Part shown: in pieces, positions 30,005 through 43,746 of the stretch | Layout of the letters: every line of letters starts with the position of its first letter | Numbering within the stretch: the stretch's first letter is position 1 | Assembly (NCBI RefSeq): GCF_008919445.1 | Contig: NZ_VSLG01000001.1 | Span: 248,001-312,000, forward strand | Length of the DNA: 64,000 nucleotides | From: Serinicoccus kebangsaanensis | GTDB lineage: Bacteria > Actinomycetota > Actinomycetes > Actinomycetales > Dermatophilaceae | Direction: 5' to 3' | Notes under the pieces: generated by a model | Told to the model about the DNA's origin: nothing | The model's database searches: none | What the model saw: the letters and a program-made list of their open reading frames with translations, nothing else | Translations under genes and position numbers: made by a program

Positions 30005-30982
30005 TCAGCCCCGCGCCCGCGGGTGGGCCTGGGCATACACCTCCCTCAGGTGCTGGGTGGAGACGTGCGTGTAGATCTGGGTGGTCGCGACGGACGCGTG
30101 CCCGAGCAGCTCCTGGACCACCCGCACGTCCGCGCCCCCGTCGAGCAGGTGGGTGGCGAAGGAGTGGCGCAGGGTGTGCGGCGAGACCGCGTCGCCCAGA
30201 CCCGCCCGCTCCGCGGCCGCCTTGATGACGGTCCAGACCGACTGCCGCGACAGCCGTCCGCCCCGGGCGTTGACGAAGACGGCGGGCGTGCCCTTGCCCC
30301 GGCGCGCGAGCTCGGGCCGACCCCGGACCAGCCACGCGTCCACCGCGTCACGGGCATACCGTCCCATGGGCACGATCCGCTCCTTGCGGCCCTTGCCGAA
30401 CAGCCGCACGACCCCGGGGAGCCCGTCCGCGTCCCCGTCCTCGGGCCGGGCCAGGTCGAGGTCGTCGACGTCGAGGTCGATCGCCTCACTGACTCGCGCA
30501 CCGCAGCCGTAGAGCACCTCGAGCAGCGCCCGGTCGCGCAAGGCCGCGGGGGTGTCGCCGAGCGCCGCCGCCTGCAGCAACCGCTCCACCTCCGCGACGC
30601 CCAGCGCCTTGGGCAGCCGCCGCGGTGGGGTCGGCGGGGCGACGGCGCGGGCGGGGTCGTCGGCCGACTCACCCTCGCCCGCCAGGAAGGTGTGCAGACC
30701 CCGGACCGCCACCACGGCCCGGGCCGCGGACGTGGCGGCCAGCGGCCGGTGGTCCTCGTCGCCGGTGCGCAGGTGGGCGAGGAAGTCGCTCACGTGCTGC
30801 TCCTGCACCTCGTCCGGCGCGGTGACCCCGCGGGCGGCGAGGAAGGCGACGTAGCGGTCCAGGTCTCGCCGGTAGGCCCTTAGCGTGTGCTCGGACCTGC
30901 CCCGCTCCACCCGCAGGTGGTCCAGCCAGTCCCCCGCGGCACGCGCCAGCGGCGTCGGGGTCGCAGGCGGCTCTGGGGTCAC
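30005..30982 (-). CDS. xerD: Site-specific tyrosine recombinase XerD
   Basis: A 325-residue tyrosine recombinase that resolves chromosome dimers at dif together with XerC and FtsK. The N-terminal SAM-like DNA-binding domain has [25 protein letters not shown] near residue 18. Catalytic residues are seen in [16 protein letters not shown] (Arg), [12 protein letters not shown] (Lys), [19 protein letters not shown] (His, Arg) and [16 protein letters not shown] (His, Tyr nucleophile). The start is GTG 30982. It is encoded immediately beside the opposed 22-bp repeat arrays at 31006-31263, which lie in its promoter region. Confidence 0.93.
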
Positions 30983-31005
30983 GCCTCCGATCCTCTCAGC
31001 ACTCC

Positions 31006-31159
31006 GACCGGCCGCACGGTTTGCGTCGACCGACCGCGCAGTGTGCGTCGACCGACCGCACGGTTTGTATCGACCGACCGCGCGGTTTGTGTCGACCGGC
31101 CGCACGGTTTGTATCGACCGACCGCGCGGTTTGTGTCGACCGACCGCGCACTGTGCATG
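31006..31159 (+). repeat. Tandem array of seven 22-bp units (left arm)
   Basis: Seven contiguous units of exactly 22 bp start at 31006, 31028, 31050, 31072, 31094, 31116 and 31138. Each begins GACCG[AG]CCGC and continues [AG]CGGTTTG in most copies, ending in TC. Units differ by one to four bases, and alternate units resemble each other (two-unit periodicity, GTATC versus GTGTC ends). There are no spacers, so it is not a CRISPR array. Confidence 0.95.
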
Positions 31160-31162
31160 GTC

Positions 31163-31263
31163 GTGCGGCCAGTCCGCGCAAACCGTGCGGCCGGTCCGCG
31201 CAAAACGTGCGGCCAGTCCGCGCAAAACGTGCGGCCAGTCCGCGCAAAACGTGCGGCCGGTCG
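31163..31263 (-). repeat. Opposed tandem array of 22-bp units (right arm)
   Basis: Units start at 31163, 31185, 31207 and 31229, each beginning GTGCGGCC[AG]GTCCGCGC and ending in a run of A with C. A partial fifth copy runs to 31263. Read on the minus strand they start GACCGGCCGCAC or GACTGGCCGCAC, the same core as the left array. The two arrays therefore form one large imperfect inverted repeat centred near 31160, in the gap between xerD and the divergent membrane-protein gene. Confidence 0.93.
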
Positions 31264-31300
31264 GGGTGAGGGCGGGGGTCGCGTGGGTCAGGATGGCCCC

Positions 31301-31943: not shown

Positions 31944-32585
31944 TCAGCCGTGCCGCTCGCGCAGCACCCTCTCGACGTCAGCGAGCCCGAGGTCGCGGGA
32001 GCGGAGCAGGACCAGCAGGTGGTAGACGAGATCGGCCGACTCGCCGAGCAGCGCCTCGTCGTCCTGCGCCACCGCGGCAAGCGCGGTCTCGACACCCTCC
32101 TCCCCGACCTTCTGTGCGATCCGCCGCACCCCCGCGTCGAAGAGCGTCGTGGTGTAGGACCCCTCCGGCCGCTCCTCGTGACGTCCGCGCACCAGCTCGT
32201 CCAGCTCGTGCACGAACGACCCGGGGCGGGCGCCGGGGTCGAAGCAGGTCTGCTCACCGGTGTGGCACGTGGGGCCGGTGGGTATGACGTGGAGCAGCAG
32301 GGTGTCCCGGTCGCAGTCCAGCTCGATGCCCTCGACCCGGAGGACGTTGCCGCTGGTCTCCCCCTTGGTCCACTGGGCGCCGCGGCTCCGGCTGTAGAAC
32401 GTGGCCAGGCCCGTCTGGATCGTCGTGGTCAGCGCCTGCTCGTCGAGGAAGCCGACCATGAGCACCTGGCGGGTCCGGGCGTGCTGCACCACGCCGGGGA
32501 TGATCCCGTCCGTCTTCGAGAAGTCGACGTCGCCGACCCCGAAGCCCACGTCTGGCGCAACCACTCGTGACGCTCGGTCGGTCAT
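31944..32585 (-). CDS. hisI: Bifunctional phosphoribosyl-AMP cyclohydrolase / phosphoribosyl-ATP pyrophosphatase (HisIE)
   Basis: A 213-residue fusion catalysing steps 2 and 3 of histidine synthesis. The HisI part has [26 protein letters not shown] near residue 40, WTKGETSGN and the zinc/magnesium ligands in [10 protein letters not shown] and [12 protein letters not shown]. The HisE part starts [12 protein letters not shown] near 125 and has [18 protein letters not shown]. Actinobacteria normally keep hisI and hisE separate; the fusion is typical of gammaproteobacteria. The ATG at 32585 is chosen because it overlaps the stop of an upstream 11-codon ORF; a 13-residue longer form from 32624 exists only because of the 32-bp repeat. 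It is the last gene of the his operon. Confidence 0.94.
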
Positions 32586-32617
32586 GAGACATCCATTCGT
32601 GACGCTCGGTCGGTCAT
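32582..32617 (-). CDS. 11-codon mini-ORF 2 in hisF-hisIE junction
   Basis: A second identical 11-codon ORF from ATG 32617. Its TGA overlaps the hisIE start at 32585 as ATGA, so the chain hisF, mini-ORF 1, mini-ORF 2, hisIE is joined by three consecutive 4-base overlaps. Confidence 0.45.
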   Translation of the reverse strand: MTDRASRMDVS

Positions 32618-32649
32618 GAGACATCCATTCGTGACGCTCGGTCGGTCAT
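32614..32649 (-). CDS. 11-codon mini-ORF 1 in hisF-hisIE junction
   Basis: ATG 32649 overlaps the hisF stop (ATGA) and encodes [11 protein letters not shown], ending in a TGA that overlaps the next ATG. These first seven residues equal the first seven of HisIE. It is probably translated by coupling but is unlikely to be functional as a peptide; its role would be to relay ribosomes onward. Confidence 0.45.
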
Positions 32650-33419
32650 GAGCGGACCTCGATCCCCGCGTCGGCCAGGGTCCGCTTGAGCGACGGGATG
32701 GGGATGGACCCGTCGTGGAAGACCGTCGCCGCGAGCGCGCCGTCGACGTCCGCCTCGCGGAAGACGTCGACGAAGTGCTGCGGCGCGCCGGCGCCACCGC
32801 TGGCCACGAGGGGCACCGGGCACAGGGACCGGACAGCTGTCAGTTGTTCGACGTCGTAGCCGTCGCGCACGCCGTCCGAGCCCATGCAGTTGAGCACGAC
32901 CTCCCCGGCACCCAGCCCGACGACCTCGCGCACCCAGTCCAGCGTGGTGGTGGGCAGCGCACGCGTGGCCTCGGGGCTGCCGGTGAACTGCCGGATCCGC
33001 CACTGCCCGTCCGCGTCCCGCAGGCTGTCCACGCCGACCACGACGCACTGGACACCGAAGGCGTCGGCCAGCTCACCCACCAGCGCGGGCCGCTGGGTGG
33101 CGGGCGTGTTGACCGACACCTTGTCCGCGCCGGCGTGCAGCACCGCGCGGGCCGTGTCCACCGACCGGATGCCGCCGGCGACGCAGAACGGGATGTCGAT
33201 CGCACGGGCCACCCGCTCGACCCAGTCCACGTCGACGCCGCGGCCCTCGGGACTGGCGGTGATGTCGTAGAACACGAGCTCGTCGGCCCCCTCCCGGGCA
33301 TACCGCTCGGCGAGCTCGACGATGTCGCCCATGTCGCGGTGGTCGCGGAAGCGGGTGCCCTTGACCACCCTGCCCTCCCGCACGTCCAGGCAGGGGATGA
33401 TGCGGCGGGCCAGCGTCAT
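32646..33419 (-). CDS. hisF: Imidazole glycerol phosphate synthase cyclase subunit HisF
   Basis: A 257-residue TIM barrel that, with HisH, makes imidazole glycerol phosphate and AICAR. Catalytic Asp residues are in [15 protein letters not shown] (residue about 11) and in [19 protein letters not shown] near 175. Other family marks are [26 protein letters not shown] and the phosphate-binding [11 protein letters not shown]. The insert [17 protein letters not shown] is of the length seen in proteobacterial HisF. ATG 33419 has AGGAGCAGGT upstream and overlaps the hisA stop. Confidence 0.96.
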
Positions 33420-34210
33420 ACCTGCTCCTCCCGAACCGCGTCGCCCACGGTGAGGCGACCCTCGAGCAGCGCCTTGCCCAGGATGATCCCCGCGCAGCCG
33501 TGACGCTTCGCGGCGCGCACGTCGTCGACCGACCGGGCACCGCCGGAGGCCTGGACCTGCAGCGCCGGGTTGGAGCGGGTGAGCATCGTGTAGAGGTGGA
33601 AGTTCGGGCCGGACAACGTGCCGTCCCGGCCGATGTCGGTGCACAGCACGTGCCGCAGCCCCGAGTCGCCGTACTGGTGCAACGTGGTGGTGAGGTCGTG
33701 CTCCCCCACCGAGGTCCAGCCCGAGGTCGGGAGCACCCAGGTGCCGTCCTCGCCGATCCTGGTGTCCAGGGCCACGGTGATCCGCTCCGGGCCGAAGCGG
33801 TCCAGCCACCCGACGACGGTCGCGGGCTCCCGCACCGCGAGCGAGCCGACGACGACCCGCTCGGCCCCGGCGTCCAGCAGCTGCTGTACGTCGTCCTCGT
33901 GCCGGACCCCTCCCCCGGTCTGCACCCGCAGGCCGGTCGTCTCCGCGATCCGCGTCAGGGTCCCGATGAGGGTGTAGCCCCCGGCGCGTGCGGCGTCCAG
34001 GTCGACGAGGTGCAGCCACGCCGCCCCGGACCGGGCGTAGTTCTCCGCCACGGCCACCGGGTTGTCGGTGTAGCGCGTCTCCTGGTCGTAGTCACCCTTG
34101 TGCAGCCGGACGACGGCACCTGCGCGGACGTCGATCGCGGGATAGACGGTGAACGGTCCGGTGTGGCTCACAGAGTTCTCTCCGGTGTCGGTGCGGAGGC
34201 CTGGCGTCAT
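33416..34210 (-). CDS. hisA: ProFAR isomerase HisA
   Basis: A 264-residue TIM-barrel isomerase of step 4 of histidine synthesis. Catalytic Asp in [14 protein letters not shown] (residue about 24) and in [15 protein letters not shown] near 185; phosphate sites are [12 protein letters not shown] and [12 protein letters not shown]. Segments such as [17 protein letters not shown] and [29 protein letters not shown] look proteobacterial (Xanthomonadaceae-like) rather than like PriA, the dual HisA/TrpF enzyme of actinobacteria. ATG 34210 has GGAGGTCG ahead and overlaps the hisH stop; GTG 34171 is a weaker alternative that would remove 13 residues. Confidence 0.93.
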
Positions 34211-34809
34211 CGATCGACCTCCACCAGGAAGTTTCGCAGAAGCCGCGCGCCGACCGACGCCGACCTCTCCGGGTGGAACTGCGCACCCCACCGCAGGCCG
34301 GATCGCACCACGGCGGTCCACGGCTCCCCGTGCACGGTCCGCGCGAGGGTGTGCGCGCTCGGCGCGGCGGCGTAGGAGTGGACGAAGTAGGCACGGTCGC
34401 CGTCCTCGATCCCGGCCAGCAGCGGGTCGTCGGCGAGTCCGGTGAGGGCGTTCCACCCCATGTGCGGCACGCGGACCCCTTGACCGCCCGGTATGCCCAC
34501 CACCTCGCCGGGGACGAGCCCGAGGGTCGCCACCCCGCCGTCCTCCGCGGAGCGCTCGAAGAGCAGCTGCATGCCCAGGCATACCCCGAGCAGGGGCGCC
34601 TGCACCTGCGCCAAGGTGTCCACCAGGCCCAGCTCCCGCAGTCGTCGCATGCCGGCGCCCGCGGCCCCCACGCCGGGCAGGATCACCCGGTCGGCGGCCA
34701 GGATGTCGGCGGGGTCGGCCGTCAGCCGGCTGGTCGCGCCGAGCCGCTCCAAGGCATAGCTGACCGAGCCGATGTTGGTGCCGCCCCCGTCGACGAGGGC
34801 GACCCTCAC
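34207..34809 (-). CDS. hisH: Imidazole glycerol phosphate synthase glutaminase subunit HisH
   Basis: A 200-residue class I glutamine amidotransferase that supplies ammonia to HisF. Catalytic Cys in [15 protein letters not shown] near residue 78, and His-Glu in [14 protein letters not shown] near 182. The oxyanion region is [13 protein letters not shown] near 45. The GTG start overlaps the hisB stop (GTGA), and the stop overlaps the hisA start. Confidence 0.95.
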
Positions 34810-35900
34810 AGCACGCCCTTGGTGGTCGGGAGCTCGGTGGAGTCACCCTGCCGGGCGATCCCCATCCGCAGCGCCCGGGCGACCGCCTTGAAGCCCACCT
34901 CGATCTTGTGGTGGGTGTTGCCACCGGTCACCGACAGGTGCAGGGTGCACCGCATCGCGTCGGCGAAGGAGCGCCAGAAGTGCTCCACCATCTCGGTGGA
35001 GAAGTCGCCCACGCTCTCCCGGTCGAAGCTCCCCTCGTAGGCGAAGTAGGGCCGCCCGGACAGGTCGATCGCGGCGGTCGCCTGGGCCTCGTCCATCGGC
35101 AGGATGAAGCCGTAGCGCCCGATCCCCCGCTTGTCGCCCAGGGCGGTGCGGATGGCCTCGCCGACGGCGAGGGCGACGTCCTCCACGGTGTGGTGGTCGT
35201 CGATGTGCAGGTCCCCCTCGCACCGGACGTGCAGGCGGAAGCCGCCGTGCTTGGCGAGCTGGTCCAGCATGTGGTCGTAGAACCCGATGCCGGTGCTGAT
35301 CCGGCTGCCGCCGGTGGCGTCCAGGTCCACCTCGACGGTGATCGACGTCTCCGAGGTGGCGCGCTCCACCCGCGCGGTGCGCGGGGCGTCGGCCAGCTGG
35401 TGCGCGACCTCGGCCCAGGTGGTGCGCGGCTCGCCCGTGCCGCCGTCCTCACCCACGAGGAAGGAGGCGATGCCGAGGTTGGCGCCGAACTCGGCGTCCG
35501 TGGCCCGGTCGCCCACCATGACGCTGCGGTCCCAGTCGACGCTACGGTCCTTGAGCAGGTGCGCCACCATCCCGATGCCGGGCTTGCGGGTCCACGGCGC
35601 CTCGGGTCCACCCACGTGGGGGTCGACGAAGACGTCCTTGAAGGTCACGCCCTGGCTGGTCAGCACCTGCATCACCAGCTGGTGCGGGCCCTCGAAGTCC
35701 GGCTGCGGGAAGGACTCGGTGCCGAGCCCGTCCTGGTTGCTGACCATGACCAGGTCGAAGCCGGCCGCCTGGATGCGCAGCAGCGCCGGGATGACGCCGT
35801 CGACGAAGGCCACCTTGTCCAGCGCGTCGATCTGGCGGTCCTCCGGCTCGACGATGATGGTCCCGTCGCGGTCGACGAAGCAGATCGGGCGGGGGCTCAT
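34806..35900 (-). CDS. hisB: Bifunctional histidinol-phosphatase / imidazoleglycerol-phosphate dehydratase (HisB)
   Basis: A 364-residue fusion. Residues about 1-165 are a HAD phosphatase: [20 protein letters not shown] with the nucleophile Asp, MVSNQDGLG, and [13 protein letters not shown] followed by [13 protein letters not shown]. The cysteine zinc loop of the E. coli enzyme is missing (here [16 protein letters not shown]), as I recall for Xanthomonas HisB. Residues about 175-364 are the dehydratase with [16 protein letters not shown] and [15 protein letters not shown], which bind the manganese pair. Actinobacteria normally have a stand-alone dehydratase and a separate HisN phosphatase, so this fusion is a strong sign of foreign origin. 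It overlaps hisC and hisH by 4 bp on each side. Confidence 0.95.
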
Positions 35901-37024
35901 GCGGGGTTCTCCTCGGTGGTGGTCGGCGGGGTGCTCAGGGCGGCGCGCAGGGCCTCCATCTCCGGCCCGGTGCCGATGGTGATGCGCAGCGCGTCCTGCA
36001 GCCGGGGCAGGTGGCGCATGTCGCGCACGACGATGCCTGCGGCGCCCAGGGTATGCAGCAGCGCGTCCGGGTCGTCGCAGCGGACCAGGAAGAAGTTGGC
36101 CTCGCTCGCGTAGACGGTGCGGATGCCGTCCAGGTCGCGCAGCCACCGCCCCACCTGGTCACGCAGCCGGAGCACGTCGCCGACGTGGCTCCCGGTGGCC
36201 TCCAGCCCGGACTCGCCGAGCGCGCGGAGCGCGAGCTCGGTCACCGGGGTGGGCAGCGGGTAGGGGGCCTGGACGCGGCGCAGGACCGACACCAGGTCGG
36301 GGTGCGCCAGCGCGATGCCGACGCGTGCCCCGGCGAGGGCGTGCGCCTTGGAGAGGGTGCGGAGCACGACGAGCGTCGGGTGCTCCTCGAGCAGCGTCAC
36401 CGCGGACCGTTGGGCGGCGAACTCGCCGTAGGCCTCGTCCACGACCACCACCGCTTGGTCGGCCAGCTCGTCGGCGAGGGCGGCGACCTCCCGCAGCGGC
36501 ACGACGGACCCGGTGGGGTTCCCGGGTGAGGCGAGGAAGACCACGCGTGCGCCGCTCTCCCGCGCCGCCGCTGCGACGCCGGCCGTGTCGACCCGCCAGC
36601 GCAGCTCGTCGTCGACCTGCGGCACCTCGATCACCGGCACCCCGTGCAACCGGGCGGAGACGGCATACATCCCGAAGGTGGGCGAGGTGACCACCACGGC
36701 GTCCCCGCCCGGTCGGCACAGGCTGCGGACGAGCAGCTCGATCGCCTCGTCGCTGCCGCGCCCGACGACCACCCGGTCCGGGGTGGTCGCCCAGAGGTCG
36801 GCGAAGGCCTCGACGAGCGCCGCGGGCTGCGGGTCCGGGTAGCGGCGTGCGCTGCCGTCGGCGTCGGCGCTGCTGGCCACGCCGGACTCGTTCGCGTTGA
36901 GCCAGATCCGGCTCGGTATGCCGGTCGGCGCGCTGGTCCGCGCCGAGGAGTATCCCGCGAAGTCGCGCAGGTCCTCCCGCACCAGGTGCAGGGGGAAGCC
37001 CACGTCGTCCTGGGGCGGCGTCAT
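35897..37024 (-). CDS. hisC: Histidinol-phosphate aminotransferase
   Basis: A 375-residue fold-type I aminotransferase catalysing step 7. Motifs: [27 protein letters not shown] near residue 40, [19 protein letters not shown] near 85, [19 protein letters not shown] near 160, [12 protein letters not shown] near 190 and the PLP lysine in [19 protein letters not shown] near 225. It overlaps hisD and hisB by 4 bp. The LNANE opening matches gammaproteobacterial HisC. Confidence 0.95.
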
Positions 37025-38328
37025 GGCACCTCCTGCAGCCGGGCCAGCCGGCGGGTGACCGCCCGCTGGTGGGCGTGCAGCGACTCCGCCTCGGAGAGCG
37101 CCACGGCGCAGGGGCCCACCGCGGCCAGTCCCGCCGGCGTGGCCCGCTGCACGGTCATCGCGATCTGGAAGGCGGCGACGTTGACCCCTCCGGTGAAGCG
37201 GGCCGCGCCGGCGGTCGGCAGAACGTGGTTGGTGCCGGAGCAGTAGTCCCCGAGGGTCTCCGGGGTGTGGTCGCCCATGAACACCGACCCGGCGCGGTCG
37301 ATCCGCGGGACCCACTCCTCCGCGTCCCGCAGGGCCAGGATGAGGTGCTCCGGGGCGTAGTCGTTCGACACCGCCACGGCGGTGTCCAGGTCAGCGGTGA
37401 CGATGAGCCGAGAGGAGGCCAGTGCCTTGCGGGCGATGTCGGCGCGGGGCAGCGTCTCGACCTGGGCGGCCACCTGCTCGGCGACCTGCTCCGCGAGCTC
37501 GGCGGAGTCGGTGAGGAGCAGGACCTGGCTGTCGGGACCGTGCTCAGCCTGCGACAGCAGGTCCGCCGCCACGAACTCGGCGTCAGCGCCCGAGTCGGCG
37601 ATGACCACGACCTCGGAGGGGCCGGCCGGCAGGTCGATGCCCGGACCACCCTCGGCGGTGCTCACCTGGCGCTTGGCCTCGGTGACCCAGGCGTTGCCCG
37701 GGCCGAAGATCTTGTCGCACGCGGGGACGCTCTCCGTGCCGTGGGCGAGCGCCGCCACCGCCTGGGCGCCACCGACCAGGACGATCTGCTCGATGCCGCA
37801 CTCCGCGGCCGCCGCCAGCACCGTCGGGTCGGCCGTGCCGTCCGGCCGCGGCGGGGTGGCGAGCACGACCTCCGGGCACCCGGCGAGCTGGGCCGGCACG
37901 CCCAGCATGAGGGCCGTGGAGGGCAGCGGCGCAGATCCCGCGGGGACGTAGAGCCCGACCCTGCGGATCGGACGGACCACCCGCCGGCAGATCACCCCTG
38001 GAGCCGTCTCCACGGCATACCCCTGCTGCATGCCGGCCTCGTGGAAGGCGCGGATCCGGCCCGCCGCCTCGGCGATGGCGGCGCGCAGCGACGGGTCGAG
38101 GCCGGCCACCGCGGCGTCCCGCTGCTCGCGCGAGACGGTGAGCGAGTCCAGCTGCGCGCCGTCAAGACGTGCGGTGAGCTCGCGCAGGGCGCGGTCGCCC
38201 CCGGCCCGCACCCGCTCCACGATCGCGGCCACCCCGGCGGTGACCTCCGGGCCGGCGGCGGCGGTCCCCCGGCGTAGCGCCTCGCTCCGGCTCGTCCGGT
38301 CCAGGTCGTCCCAGGTCAGGACCTTCAT
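37021..38328 (-). CDS. hisD: Histidinol dehydrogenase
   Basis: A 435-residue zinc enzyme oxidising histidinol to histidine with two NAD. Family motifs: [21 protein letters not shown] near residue 118, [18 protein letters not shown] near 200, [15 protein letters not shown] near 225, [17 protein letters not shown] near 255, and [10 protein letters not shown] followed by [20 protein letters not shown] near 355, which bind substrate and zinc. It overlaps hisG and hisC by ATGA boxes. Confidence 0.96.
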
Positions 38329-39233
38329 GCCAGCATCCCCTCCACCGGAAGGACCATGAGGTTGTGCGCGCCGGCGCGCTTGAGGTCCTCCAGCCGCGCC
38401 CACGAGACCGACCCGTGCACCAGCATCTGGAGCGCGACCTCGTCCCGGCCGTCGACCGCCATGACCGTGGGCTCGTGGCCCCCGGGCAGCAGCGGCAGCA
38501 CGGTCTCGAGCAACGGCCGCTCCACCCGCAGCATGAGCAGTCGTGACTCCTTGAGCTGCACCGCGCCGTCCAGCCGGCGCAGCAGCAGGTCGGCGATCTC
38601 CTGACGCCCGTCGTCGAGCTGTCCACCCGGTCCGGCGATCACCGCCTCGCTGTGCAGGATGGTGGTGACCGGCTTGAGCTGGTTGGCCCGGAGGGTGCCG
38701 CCGGTGGAGACCAGGTCGCAGACGACGTCCGCCTGGCCCAGCCGGGGCGCGATCTCGACCGACCCGTTGAGCACGACCGGCTCCGCGTCGACCTGGTGCT
38801 CGGTCAGCCAGCGCCCGAGCGTGTGCGGATAGGACGTGGCGATCCGTAGGCCGGCCAGCTGCTCCGGGCCGGACCACTCCCGCTCCTCGTCGATGGCGAT
38901 GTCCAGGCGGCAGGTCCCCCAGCCGAGCTGGCGCCACTCGGTCAGGTGGGCTCCCCTGCCCTGCGCCTGGCGCGCCAGGTAGTGCTCGACGAGCACGTTG
39001 CGACCGACGATCCCGAGGTCGCACACGCCGTCGGCGATGAGTCCCGGGATGTCGTCGTCGCGGACCAGCAGGAGGTCGACCGGCAGGCTCTCGCCGTAGC
39101 AGAAGAGCCGGTCACGGCTCTCCCGCCAGGTCAGGCCGCACGAGGCGAGCAGCTCTCGGGCGGGCTCGCCGAGGCGGCCGGACTTCTGGATCGCCACACG
39201 CAGGCGGTCGCGTGGCTGGGCAGGCGGGGTCAT
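38325..39233 (-). CDS. hisG: ATP phosphoribosyltransferase HisG (long form)
   Basis: A 302-residue HisG of the long form, with catalytic and regulatory (ACT-like) domains; it catalyses the first, feedback-inhibited step. It opens [20 protein letters not shown], has [24 protein letters not shown] near residue 55, [16 protein letters not shown] near 130 and the PRPP-binding [15 protein letters not shown] near 175. The QKSGRL opening and RDDDIPGL stretch match E. coli-type HisG, whereas actinobacterial HisG has a different N-terminus (as in the Mycobacterium enzyme). ATG 39233 has GGAAGG ahead. A 59-bp gap separates it from the YerC-like regulator gene. Confidence 0.95.
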
Positions 39234-39292
39234 CGGGGCCTTCCGGGACGGGAGGTGGTCTGTCGGCTGAGGGGTCGGGCAGGGTCGGGCGA

Positions 39293-39613
39293 TCAGCCCG
39301 CCAGCCCTTCGGGATGCTCGCGACGATGCTCCAGCGCGGCGCGGTAGCCTCCGGCGCCGGCGTCGAGGCACCGGGCGATCCGCCCCACGGTGGTCACGCT
39401 CACCCCGGTGACGTCGTGGATCTGGCGGTAGGGCATACCGTCGGCGAGCAACGGCACCACGGACCACCGGTCCGCCAGAGCCTCGATCTCGGCCGGTGTG
39501 CACAGGTCCTCGAGGAAGGCGTCGACGGCCGCGGCATCGCCCAGGCGCGCGAGCACGTGGGCGAGGTCGGCGCGCGCCGTCTCGGCGCGTGCGGCGTCCT
39601 CCCGCTGCTTCAT
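39293..39613 (-). CDS. YerC/YecD-type TrpR-like repressor
   Basis: A 106-residue, all-helical protein of the TrpR/YerC-YecD family. The recognition region is [20 protein letters not shown] followed by the helix-turn-helix [24 protein letters not shown] near residue 60. Members often precede hisG in gammaproteobacteria and are thought to control histidine synthesis; that regulation is family inference. It is the first gene of the his operon on this strand. ATG 39613 is preferred over GTG 39631 because GAGGAAGG lies 6 bases ahead. Confidence 0.88.
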
Positions 39614-39635: not shown

Positions 39636-39668
39636 TGTGTACCAATGCGCTATTACGCTAACACGACG
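39636..39668 (-). promoter_or_regulatory. AT-rich promoter/operator candidate of the his operon
   Basis: The minus strand reads TGTTAGCGTAATAGCGCATT just upstream of the YerC-like gene. It holds a direct repeat TTAGCG-TA-ATAGCG and a -10-like TAATAG. It is a sharp AT-rich break in a GC-rich stretch and the natural place for the operon promoter and YerC binding. No exact match to a known operator is claimed. Confidence 0.4.
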
Positions 39669-40873: not shown

Positions 40874-42274
40874 TCAGACGAGGGGCTGGGCCAGCTCCAC
40901 CTTGAGCGCCGAGACGACCTCGTCGCGGGGCACGGTGAACTGGTCCTGACGGCGCAGGTCCTTGAGCGTCACCGTGCCGTCGGCCATCTCCTGCCGACCC
41001 AGGATGGCGACGAAGCGGATGCCGGCCCGGTCGGCATACCGCAGCTGCTTGCCCAGCTTGCCGCCGTCGAGCACCGCCTCGGTGTTGATCCCGCCGTGCC
41101 GCAGCTGGGAGGCCAGCGCGAGCTGGTCGTCCAGCAGGTCGGCGTCCACCTGCGGCACCAGGACCTGCACCGTCGACTCCCCCGCCGAGGCGTCGATGAG
41201 CCCGGCCTCGCGCAGCTGCCAGAAGAGCCGGGACAGCCCGATGGAGATGCCGACGCCGGGCAGGCGCGAGCTCGTGTACTGCCCCGCGAGGTCGTCGTAC
41301 CGGCCGCCAGAGCAGATGGACCCCAGCTCCGGGTGCTCGTCCAGCGTGGTCTCGTAGACGGTGCCGGTGTAGTAGTCGAGGCCGCGCGCGATGGAGAAGT
41401 TGAGGCAGTAGCTGTCCTCCGGCACGCCCAGCGCCCGGACCAGGGACAGGACCTCCCGCAGCTCTGCGACACCCTCGGCCAGGGCAGTGCTGCCCTTGGA
41501 GGCCGCGGCCACGGCGTCCAGCCGACTCAGCGCGTCCGTATGCCCCGTCGACCGGGTCTGCACGAAGTCGAGGATCTGCTCGACGACCTCGGTGGACAGC
41601 CCGAAGTGCTCCCCGGTCAACGAGGACCGCAGGTAGTCCGGTCCACGCTTGTCGAGCTTGTCCACCTCCCGCAGCACCGCGGCCTGGGTCTCGGGGTCGA
41701 CGATCCCGAGGTCCTCGTAGAAGCCGCGCAGCAGCTTGCGGTTGTTGATCTGGATGGTGAAGGCGCCGATCGCCAGGTCGGTGAAGATGGCGTTGATGAT
41801 GGCCGGCGCCTCCGCGTCGTGCCGCACCGACAGCTCGCCGGAGCCGATGATGTCCACGTCGCACTGGTAGAACTCGCGGAACCGGCCTCGCTGGGGCCGC
41901 TCCCCGCGGTAGACCCGCTGCATCTGGTAGCGCCGGAACGGGAAGGTCAGCTGGTGCTGGTGCTCGGCGACGTAGCGCGCCAGCGGCACGGTGAGGTCGA
42001 AGCGCAGCGCGAGCTCGGGCAGGGCCTCGTCCTCGGCGTCCTGGGTCCGTGACTTCTCCAGCGCCCCGGTCGACTGCACGAAGTAGACCTGGCGCTCGGT
42101 CTCCCCGCCGGTCTTGGTGAGCAGCACGTCGGAGCGCTCGAACACCGGTGTCTCGATCGGCAGGAAGCCGAAGCGCTCGTAGCCGGAACGGATCGAGTCC
42201 AGCATCCGCTGGAAGGCGACCTGCTCCGGCGGCAGCAGCTCGAGGACACCGGACGGCGTGCGGGGGGAGATCAC
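40874..42274 (-). CDS. hisS: Histidyl-tRNA synthetase
   Basis: A 466-residue class II synthetase. It has motif 2 in [20 protein letters not shown] near residue 115, the histidine-site stretches [19 protein letters not shown] and [14 protein letters not shown] near 290, then [35 protein letters not shown] and a C-terminal anticodon domain. The N-terminus ([42 protein letters not shown]) is unlike the mycobacterial and common Micrococcales enzymes and resembles Xanthomonadaceae HisRS as I recall it. The location, between the cyclophilin and MBL genes near relA, is nevertheless the usual actinobacterial one. ATG 42274. Confidence 0.95.
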
Positions 42275-43047: not shown

Positions 43048-43746
43048 TCAGAGCCCGCTCAGGTAGGGGTTGGTGCGGCGCTCCCGGACCATCGTGGTCG
43101 CGGGGCCGTGCCCCGGCAGCACGAGCGAGGTGTCGGCCAGCGGCAGCACCACGTCACGCAGACTGCGCTGCATCGCGGCAGCGTCACCACCCGGCAGGTC
43201 GGTCCGGCCGATCGACCCGGCGAAGAGCACGTCGCCGGAGATGACCGTCCGGTCCAGCTCGTCGGACGGTATGCCCTCGGGCACCCCTGTGGTGGTGAAC
43301 AGCACCGATCCCTCGGTGTGGCCGGGAGCGTGGGCCACCCCGATCCGCATCCCGGCCAGCTCGATCTCCTGGGCGTCGGCGATCTCCACGACGTCCTCCG
43401 GCTCGGTCCAGGTCGCCGACCGGCCGAACTGCTGCTCGAGCGCCAGCACGAGCTCCGGACCGAGCGAGGAGAGCGGGTCCCGCAACCTATAGCGGTCGTC
43501 GGTGTGGATGAACGGACTCACCGCGGTCGTCCCTCCGCAGACCGGGGTCACGGCATACACATGGTCGAGGTGACCGTGCGTGAGGAGCACGGCGGCAGGC
43601 CGCAGGCGGTGCTCGGCGAGGACGTCCTGGACGCGCTGCTCGACGCCGATGCCGGGGTCCACGATGAGGCACTCCTCGCCCTCGGCCGGGGCGAGGACGT
43701 AGCAGTTGGTGGCGAAGGCGTCGGCGACGATGCTGCGGACGAACAT
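43048..43746 (-). CDS. MBL-fold metallohydrolase (glyoxalase II-like)
   Basis: A 232-residue metallo-beta-lactamase-fold hydrolase with the dinuclear zinc motif LLTHGHLDHVYAV near residue 55, a later His in APGHTEGSV, Asp in VISGDVLFAGSIGRTDLPGG and His in VLPGHGPATTM. This is the glyoxalase II-like protein commonly found between relA and hisS in actinobacteria. It is probably a thioester hydrolase; the natural substrate is unproven. ATG 43746. Confidence 0.9.
   Translation of the reverse strand: MFVRSIVADAFATNCYVLAPAEGEECLIVDPGIGVEQRVQDVLAEHRLRPAAVLLTHGHLDHVYAVTPVCGGTTAVSPFIHTDDRYRLRDPLSSLGPELVLALEQQFGRSATWTEPEDVVEIADAQEIELAGMRIGVAHAPGHTEGSVLFTTTGVPEGIPSDELDRTVISGDVLFAGSIGRTDLPGGDAAAMQRSLRDVVLPLADTSLVLPGHGPATTMVRERRTNPYLSGL

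Follow-up and report, generated by a model that had tools for sequence, protein, structure and literature searches.

Herein we characterize a histidine biosynthesis (his) operon, together with the hisS gene upstream of it, in a window of 64,000 nucleotides (the whole stretch of DNA that was analysed) from the actinobacterium Serinicoccus kebangsaanensis, which has a genome of 3.50 Mb. Nine genes, yerC-hisG-hisD-hisC-hisB-hisH-hisA-hisF-hisIE, occupy positions 31944-39613 on the minus strand, in the arrangement that a first-pass annotation of the same DNA had described. That annotation also read the leader gene as a YerC/TrpR-like regulator, HisB as a phosphatase-dehydratase fusion and HisI as a HisIE fusion, and each of these assignments holds against curated profile models (scores below). 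The leader protein (YerC, or HisR) falls into the TrpR-related fold family, HisB joins a HAD phosphatase domain and an imidazoleglycerol-phosphate dehydratase (IGPD) domain in one protein, and HisIE carries its PRA-CH and PRA-PH domains in a single protein. The HisA of the operon passes the model for its monofunctional family and stays below the cut-off of the PriA model (TIGR01919, 155.4 bits vs 306.45). The extent given in the annotation stood for the nine genes and fell short beyond them, in that hisS, an operator-like site, a leftover priA and the scar of a native operon had been overlooked; hisS (40874-42274) and the operator-like site belong to the imported block, and the feature is thus larger than nine genes. 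Its components are as follows.

40874..42274, minus strand: hisS, histidine--tRNA ligase of the Lysobacterales type, replacing the native hisS; TIGR00442 392.5 bits (cut-off 286.75)
39639..39664, minus strand: operator-like dyad of the HisR/TrpR type, 25 nt upstream of the yerC start; top-scoring site of the window (28.3)
39293..39613, minus strand: yerC/hisR, TrpR-family regulator; TIGR02531 55.1 bits (cut-off 42.2), PF01371 79.9 (cut-off 27)
38325..39233, minus strand: hisG, ATP phosphoribosyltransferase, long form with C-terminal domain; TIGR00070 and TIGR03455 above cut-off
37021..38328, minus strand: hisD, histidinol dehydrogenase; TIGR00069 above cut-off
35897..37024, minus strand: hisC, histidinol-phosphate aminotransferase; TIGR01141 above cut-off
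34806..35900, minus strand: hisB, histidinol-phosphatase/dehydratase fusion; NF003937 508.9 bits (cut-off 443), TIGR01261 180.1 (cut-off 140)
34207..34809, minus strand: hisH; TIGR01855 above cut-off
33416..34210, minus strand: hisA, monofunctional N'-[(5'-phosphoribosyl)formimino]-5-aminoimidazole-4-carboxamide ribonucleotide (ProFAR) isomerase; TIGR00007 238.3 (cut-off 228.95)
32646..33419, minus strand: hisF; TIGR00735 above cut-off
31944..32585 (alternative start 32624), minus strand: hisIE fusion; NF002747 256.7 bits (cut-off 187)

The start of hisIE is uncertain because a 32-bp unit (2.9 copies, 98%) at 32561-32652 spans the hisF-hisIE junction and provides several candidate start codons.

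The palindromic operator-like site before hisR and the his operon was found using a matrix built exclusively from 25 gammaproteobacterial loci, for which the best of five shuffled windows scored 5.6. With the same matrix, the top site sits before yerC in 18/18 other loci of the genus and of Kytococcus. By our count, the window site matches 12 of the 14 fixed positions in the proteobacterial HisR consensus TGTAnTArnnnnyTnTTACA (Ashniev et al. 2022, PMC9413887), a survey that also reports histidine-dependent DNA binding for the HisR of Ruminococcus gnavus. HisR would presumably repress the operon in a histidine-dependent manner. In the portions of that survey drawn on here, actinobacterial HisR occurs in Coriobacteriales and Eggerthellales only, is never clustered with histidine biosynthesis genes and has another motif, whereas the his operon of the window is led by a proteobacterial-type HisR and site.

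Source and landing site of the block

In a sample of 393 genomes from the class, the fused HisB exceeded its cut-off only in that of the window; in a search among relatives it did so in 31 of 58 genomes, all 31 from the window's own genus. At the family level it was present in 30/168 genomes, namely 28/28 of the own genus, 2/2 of Kytococcus (genus g168) and 0/138 in the other 47 genera. The equation of g168 with Kytococcus follows by inference from the match coordinates of G511, which are identical to those in the genome from which the named locus L080 comes. Three genomes of less than 85% completeness (G397, G401 and G412) stand outside the family counts for the fusion, HisA/PriA and TrpF, and all three carry the fusion. 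Within Lysobacterales, 43/51 genomes have it. The first-pass annotation had itself said what would speak against a transfer, i.e., all of these proteins placed within Actinobacteria and fusions widespread there; the counts above and the concatenated trees below depart from that pattern. HisB of the window is 65-87% identical to its counterparts in Serinicoccus, Ornithinimicrobium and Ornithinicoccus, 62% to that of Kytococcus aerolatus and 57% to that of Thermomonas, followed by other Lysobacterales. A HisB of 75% identity also occurs in a record titled Acidobacteria bacterium ATN4 (L088), whose operon shares 73-81% identity with that of the window; this is probably a mis-binned contig of the Ornithinimicrobium group.

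Thermomonas (L081), a further member of Lysobacterales (L082) and Rhodanobacter (L085) share all nine genes and their order. Trees were built from chosen subsets of rows, leaving out those that were too short (HisC of L073 and L151; HisF of L166). In a concatenated tree of all nine proteins (37 rows), the genus and Kytococcus (hereafter the recipients) form a single clade (support 100/100) whose sister is Thermomonas plus L146-L150, all Lysobacteraceae, and the joint clade (100/100) is nested in Lysobacterales. A seven-protein tree to which the native proteins of the family were added (42 rows) left this placement unchanged and again joined the genus and Kytococcus (100), and forcing the recipients together with the native proteins was rejected by the approximately unbiased (AU) test (p = 9e-13). 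Among the single genes, the same constraint was rejected for HisF (0.0015) and HisA (0.040). Quick trees of individual proteins grouped the recipients with the six Lysobacteraceae rows for HisG (99), HisC (100), full-length HisB (99), HisA (94), YerC (85) and HisF (76), and in the HisH tree this group included one further row (85). HisS also falls among Lysobacterales, with the genus and Kytococcus united (97/94); nothing was drawn from row L239 of that tree, which has an untrustworthy branch length of 10. HisS and the concatenated proteins hence group with a distant lineage, while the single-gene AU tests are mixed. The proposal in the annotation that a whole essential pathway had been replaced together with its regulator is supported by the distribution of the fusion, the concatenated trees and the AU test.

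A sister relation gives no direction by itself, and a transfer from actinobacteria to Lysobacteraceae would yield one as well. We nevertheless regard this as highly improbable, since the recipients lie several supported nodes deep in Lysobacterales, the HisB fusion is common in that order vs only two genera of the recipient family, and the recipients contain the scar of a native operon (see below).

The hisS gene points to the same source. Its product shares 65-67% identity with the HisS of L146, L147 and L148, in which hisS immediately precedes yerC, vs 41-43% with the native HisS of seven relatives. A few kb separate yerC from an upstream hisS in G573 and G604, and the Thermomonas genome carries hisS on a separate contig. 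No chimeric HisS resulting from recombination inside hisS was seen, as three recipient sequences are donor-like in every 60-column stretch. A single HisS above the cut-off was found in 46/47 genomes searched; in G396 a hisS match is in three pieces (C1:2018476-2019810), which reflects either sequencing error or real damage.

Two further genes of the window identify the site at which the block resides:

43048..43746, minus strand: native left flank, which we take to be an MBL-like hydrolase gene; directly before native hisS in 7/7 relatives
30005..30904, minus strand: native right flank, xerD-like tyrosine recombinase; NF001399 above cut-off, XerD model 325.9, just below 329.6

In all seven relatives the native slot reads MBL gene, native hisS, then xerD, parA and scpA, with xerD 0.1-4.7 kb from hisS, and the seven stretches also show, upstream of the native hisS, a peptidyl-prolyl isomerase gene (six stretches) and relA (five stretches). 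In the genus, the MBL and xerD flanks enclose the foreign hisS, yerC and the operon. The xerD gene follows the foreign block in the window and in all 14 other genus loci of sufficient length (L075 and L216 among them being the same contig, and L217 having no MBL match). The hisS and yerC genes are directly adjacent in the early branches of the genus, and an isomerase gene intervenes on the Serinicoccus side. Contamination or misassembly has next to no probability as the origin of the block, which has the same native flanks in many separate genomes and lies in a window with a G+C content of 0.72.

The scar of the native operon and the leftover priA

A search of the genome for remnants of the native pathway, which the annotation had suggested with hisE and priA among its targets, gave a divided answer: PRA-PH has a single match, while a second, divergent HisA/PriA-like gene is present (match G000:C6:68733-69425; gene L006:9622-10332). 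This leftover PriA scores 128.7 bits in the window's genome and so fails the PriA model (cut-off 306.45), and divergent forms of 106-223 bits occur in 27 other genomes of the genus and two of Kytococcus. Among the other genomes of the family, 35/36 have one PriA above the cut-off. The exception, G457 (genus g150), is rated 100% complete, has neither a HisA/PriA nor an IGPD match and may be without both pathways.

The native locus in relatives reads glnA-glnE-hisD-hisC-hisB-hyp-hisH-priA-sseB. Here, priA and sseB are adjacent in 10/10 family loci, glnA-glnE stands directly before hisD in 10/17 family genomes (in the other seven this region falls outside the available stretch), and hyp, a weak match of 30-36%, is present in 8/10 native loci. 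Where the flanks of the leftover gene are available, the order is glnA-glnE-priA-sseB in 21/21 loci, two of them from Kytococcus and 20 of them with hyp, and the gaps in all 21 are too small for hisD, hisC, hisB or hisH. We therefore conclude that the native operon was excised in place and priA left behind. The loss of native genes is also seen in the profile searches, with single matches for IGPD, PRA-PH and HisG in the own genome and one HisG match per genome in 36 genomes.

The presence of two HisA-like genes per genome could likewise come from a duplication of hisA, as has been proposed for Ornithinimicrobiaceae (Rosas-Becerra et al. 2026, PMC13055916). The trees and the synteny rule out that the second isomerase arose in this way, and we attach almost no probability to it: the leftover PriA clusters with the PriA of the family (100/99; on a long stem, its position inside the family not being resolved) and keeps the native priA position between glnA-glnE and sseB, while the operon HisA groups with Lysobacteraceae (94, with the six rows). 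In the part of PMC13055916 considered here, the HisA clade of those organisms is itself placed near the HisA of A. ferrooxidans.

Residues of the leftover PriA were compared in M. tuberculosis numbering, with columns set by the S. coelicolor PriA structure 1VZW. In 30/30 sequences the ProFAR-binding residues R85, T105 and W145 have given way to various others and T170 to alanine, while D11, D130, R143 and D175, including the catalytic Asp11 and Asp175, are retained, which is the residue pattern of the SubTrpF2 enzymes. The change R19Q, one of five given in PMC13055916, is ancestral and not a cause, because Q19 already occurs in 10/10 single-copy PriA of the family and 2/5 of the class. No TrpF was detected in 50 family genomes by a search that was positive in 14/14 controls and 3/3 Lysobacterales. 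The ratio of nonsynonymous to synonymous substitution rates (dN/dS) of the leftover priA is 0.14-0.32 across eight species pairs, which indicates purifying selection; the canonical priA gave 0.10 (one pair), GlnA 0.04-0.09 (three pairs) and SseB 0.10-0.28 (eight pairs). Complementation of trpF, and not of hisA, has been reported for the PriA of O. murale (PMC13055916), and the retained priA of the window species and of Kytococcus appears, as predicted from its residues, to serve tryptophan only.

Proposed course of the replacement

We consider it very likely that a hisS-his block was imported from a lineage of Lysobacteraceae in a common ancestor of the recipients, that the native genes were lost and that priA was reduced to a TrpF-only enzyme. 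The more specific account, in which one ancient inter-phylum transfer brought synthetase, repressor, operator and pathway onto the native hisS and the loss of the operon made priA a one-substrate enzyme, is probable. In detail, the common ancestor of Ornithinimicrobium, Serinicoccus, Ornithinicoccus and Kytococcus would have gained hisS-[operator]-yerC(hisR)-hisG-D-C-B-H-A-F-IE, and in the Ornithinimicrobium group the block would have taken the place of the native hisS. It would have supplied the synthetase, a complete pathway and its own regulation, with HisR, presumably with histidine as co-repressor, binding the operator before its own gene and repressing the operon. The native his genes could then have been lost, with hisD, hisC, hisB and hisH deleted in place and priA kept because, with no trpF, it was the sole phosphoribosylanthranilate (PRA) isomerase for tryptophan. 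Relieved of ProFAR isomerization, priA may subsequently have lost the residues for that substrate. We infer the single event, the order of these steps and the route of DNA entry. The annotation had considered an old transfer, and the sharing of the block by the genus and Kytococcus supports such an age; the two are sisters in an RpoB tree with moderate support (86/81), while a GlnA/GlnE tree without outgroup has no bearing on their sisterhood.

If transfer is accepted, a single event is strongly favoured. Two independent acquisitions, one in the Ornithinimicrobium group and one in Kytococcus, or a later passage between both, with related Lysobacteraceae donors and a loss of the native genes each time, are unlikely. 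Different neighbours of the block would fit such a history, as Kytococcus has ETF alpha or DJ-1/PfpI genes next to it and neither MBL nor xerD was matched in the available stretch, and so would the HisA tree, which separates the genus from Kytococcus (83 and 89), and loop 1 of the leftover PriA, which is shorter by ~7 residues in the genus and by 6 in Kytococcus. Against two acquisitions, the concatenated trees unite the recipients, as does HisS, the scar is alike in both, R85, T105, W145 and T170 are lost in both, and the two are sisters in the RpoB tree, though only at the support given above.

Several observations weigh against an import by a single transfer, or against parts of it. The single-gene AU tests did not reject a grouping of the recipients with native proteins for HisG (0.81), HisC (0.11), IGPD (0.55) and HisH (0.084), and the HisD tree itself unites the genus and Kytococcus with the native proteins (support 89). 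In our judgement, the single-gene tests probe the attachment point of a distant root, since the native proteins form a very long branch. The clade of recipients and six Lysobacteraceae rows was not recovered in the quick trees of HisD, IGPD, HisI and HisE; those of HisA and HisI separate the genus from Kytococcus, and that of HisH leaves the two unresolved. Because the recipients are sister to, and not nested in, the six sampled Lysobacteraceae rows, the trees point to a lineage and not to an exact donor. The Kytococcus block is placed elsewhere, with hisS preceded by ETF alpha in L215 and by a DJ-1/PfpI gene in L080, and the MBL and xerD flanks were not found around it in the available stretches of these two loci, which offer no clear landing site. 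A dyad-symmetric 26-bp site lies ahead of yerC in 46/46 loci with an upstream stretch, a count for which one set of loci served both to train the matrix and to be scored. Lastly, the leftover priA exceeds GlnA in dN/dS but stays close to its neighbour SseB in the same pairs, and thus demonstrates no relaxation.

Relation to known systems

The leftover PriA belongs to the same enzyme group as SubTrpF2 of Ornithinimicrobiaceae, where PriA likewise stands beside HisA and TrpF is absent (PMC13055916). Unlike in that account, the native priA lies here where its own operon was cut out, following the import of a whole pathway, Kytococcus is included and Q19 is ancestral. Our evidence contradicts three inferences of PMC13055916, namely a lineage-specific hisA duplication, a previously unreported gene neighbourhood and a restriction to Ornithinimicrobiaceae. 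The portion of that paper drawn on contains no treatment of HisS, the HisB and HisIE fusions, HisR, a Lysobacteraceae source or Kytococcus, and the terms Kytococcus and Xanthomonad are absent from its main text. The SubTrpF enzymes of Actinomycetaceae are TrpF-only forms of PriA as well, having lost the loop-5 tryptophan and the equivalent of Arg83 (Juarez-Vazquez et al. 2017, PMC5404923); there the background is gene loss in reduced genomes, whereas here a complete his operon was imported in prototrophs. Kytococcus has been noted to be without HisN, with Cg0911 suggested as its histidinol-phosphatase (Kulis-Horn et al. 2017, PMC5516325), and the fused HisB phosphatase offers an answer to that remark.

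The replacement described here offers a reason why a TrpF-only PriA, as recently reported, exists in these organisms, and it corrects the origin and one of the mutations given for that enzyme. Noda-Garcia and colleagues are said to have described, in 2013, a mirror case in Corynebacterium, where foreign trp genes acquired by horizontal transfer reportedly left a HisA-only PriA (SubHisA); the SubHisA case is also mentioned in PMC5404923 and PMC13055916. In both cases foreign amino-acid genes would relieve PriA of one substrate, foreign trp genes leading to a HisA-only and foreign his genes to a TrpF-only enzyme. The replacement of the his genes also shows that exchange between phyla can involve an essential pathway along with its aminoacyl-tRNA synthetase and regulatory circuit, and it provides a comparative system for the specialization of a bifunctional enzyme. 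If true, the ~30 sequenced species and Kytococcus would make up a natural series in which an enzyme gives up one of two substrates after the import of a pathway. No account of this operon transfer was found among the best matches in the open-access literature, subscription papers being mostly outside the scope of that search.

Repeats were observed in and around his loci. Between hisIE and xerD, the window contains two 22-bp tandem-repeat arrays (31005-31149 and 31162-31262) that are mostly reverse complements of each other, with arms of 107 nt at 31000-31106 and 31162-31268 that are 77% complementary. In the relative G425, repetitive reading frames lie between the native hisF and hisI (~6700-8300 of L171), which hints at other intergenic repeat arrays in the family.

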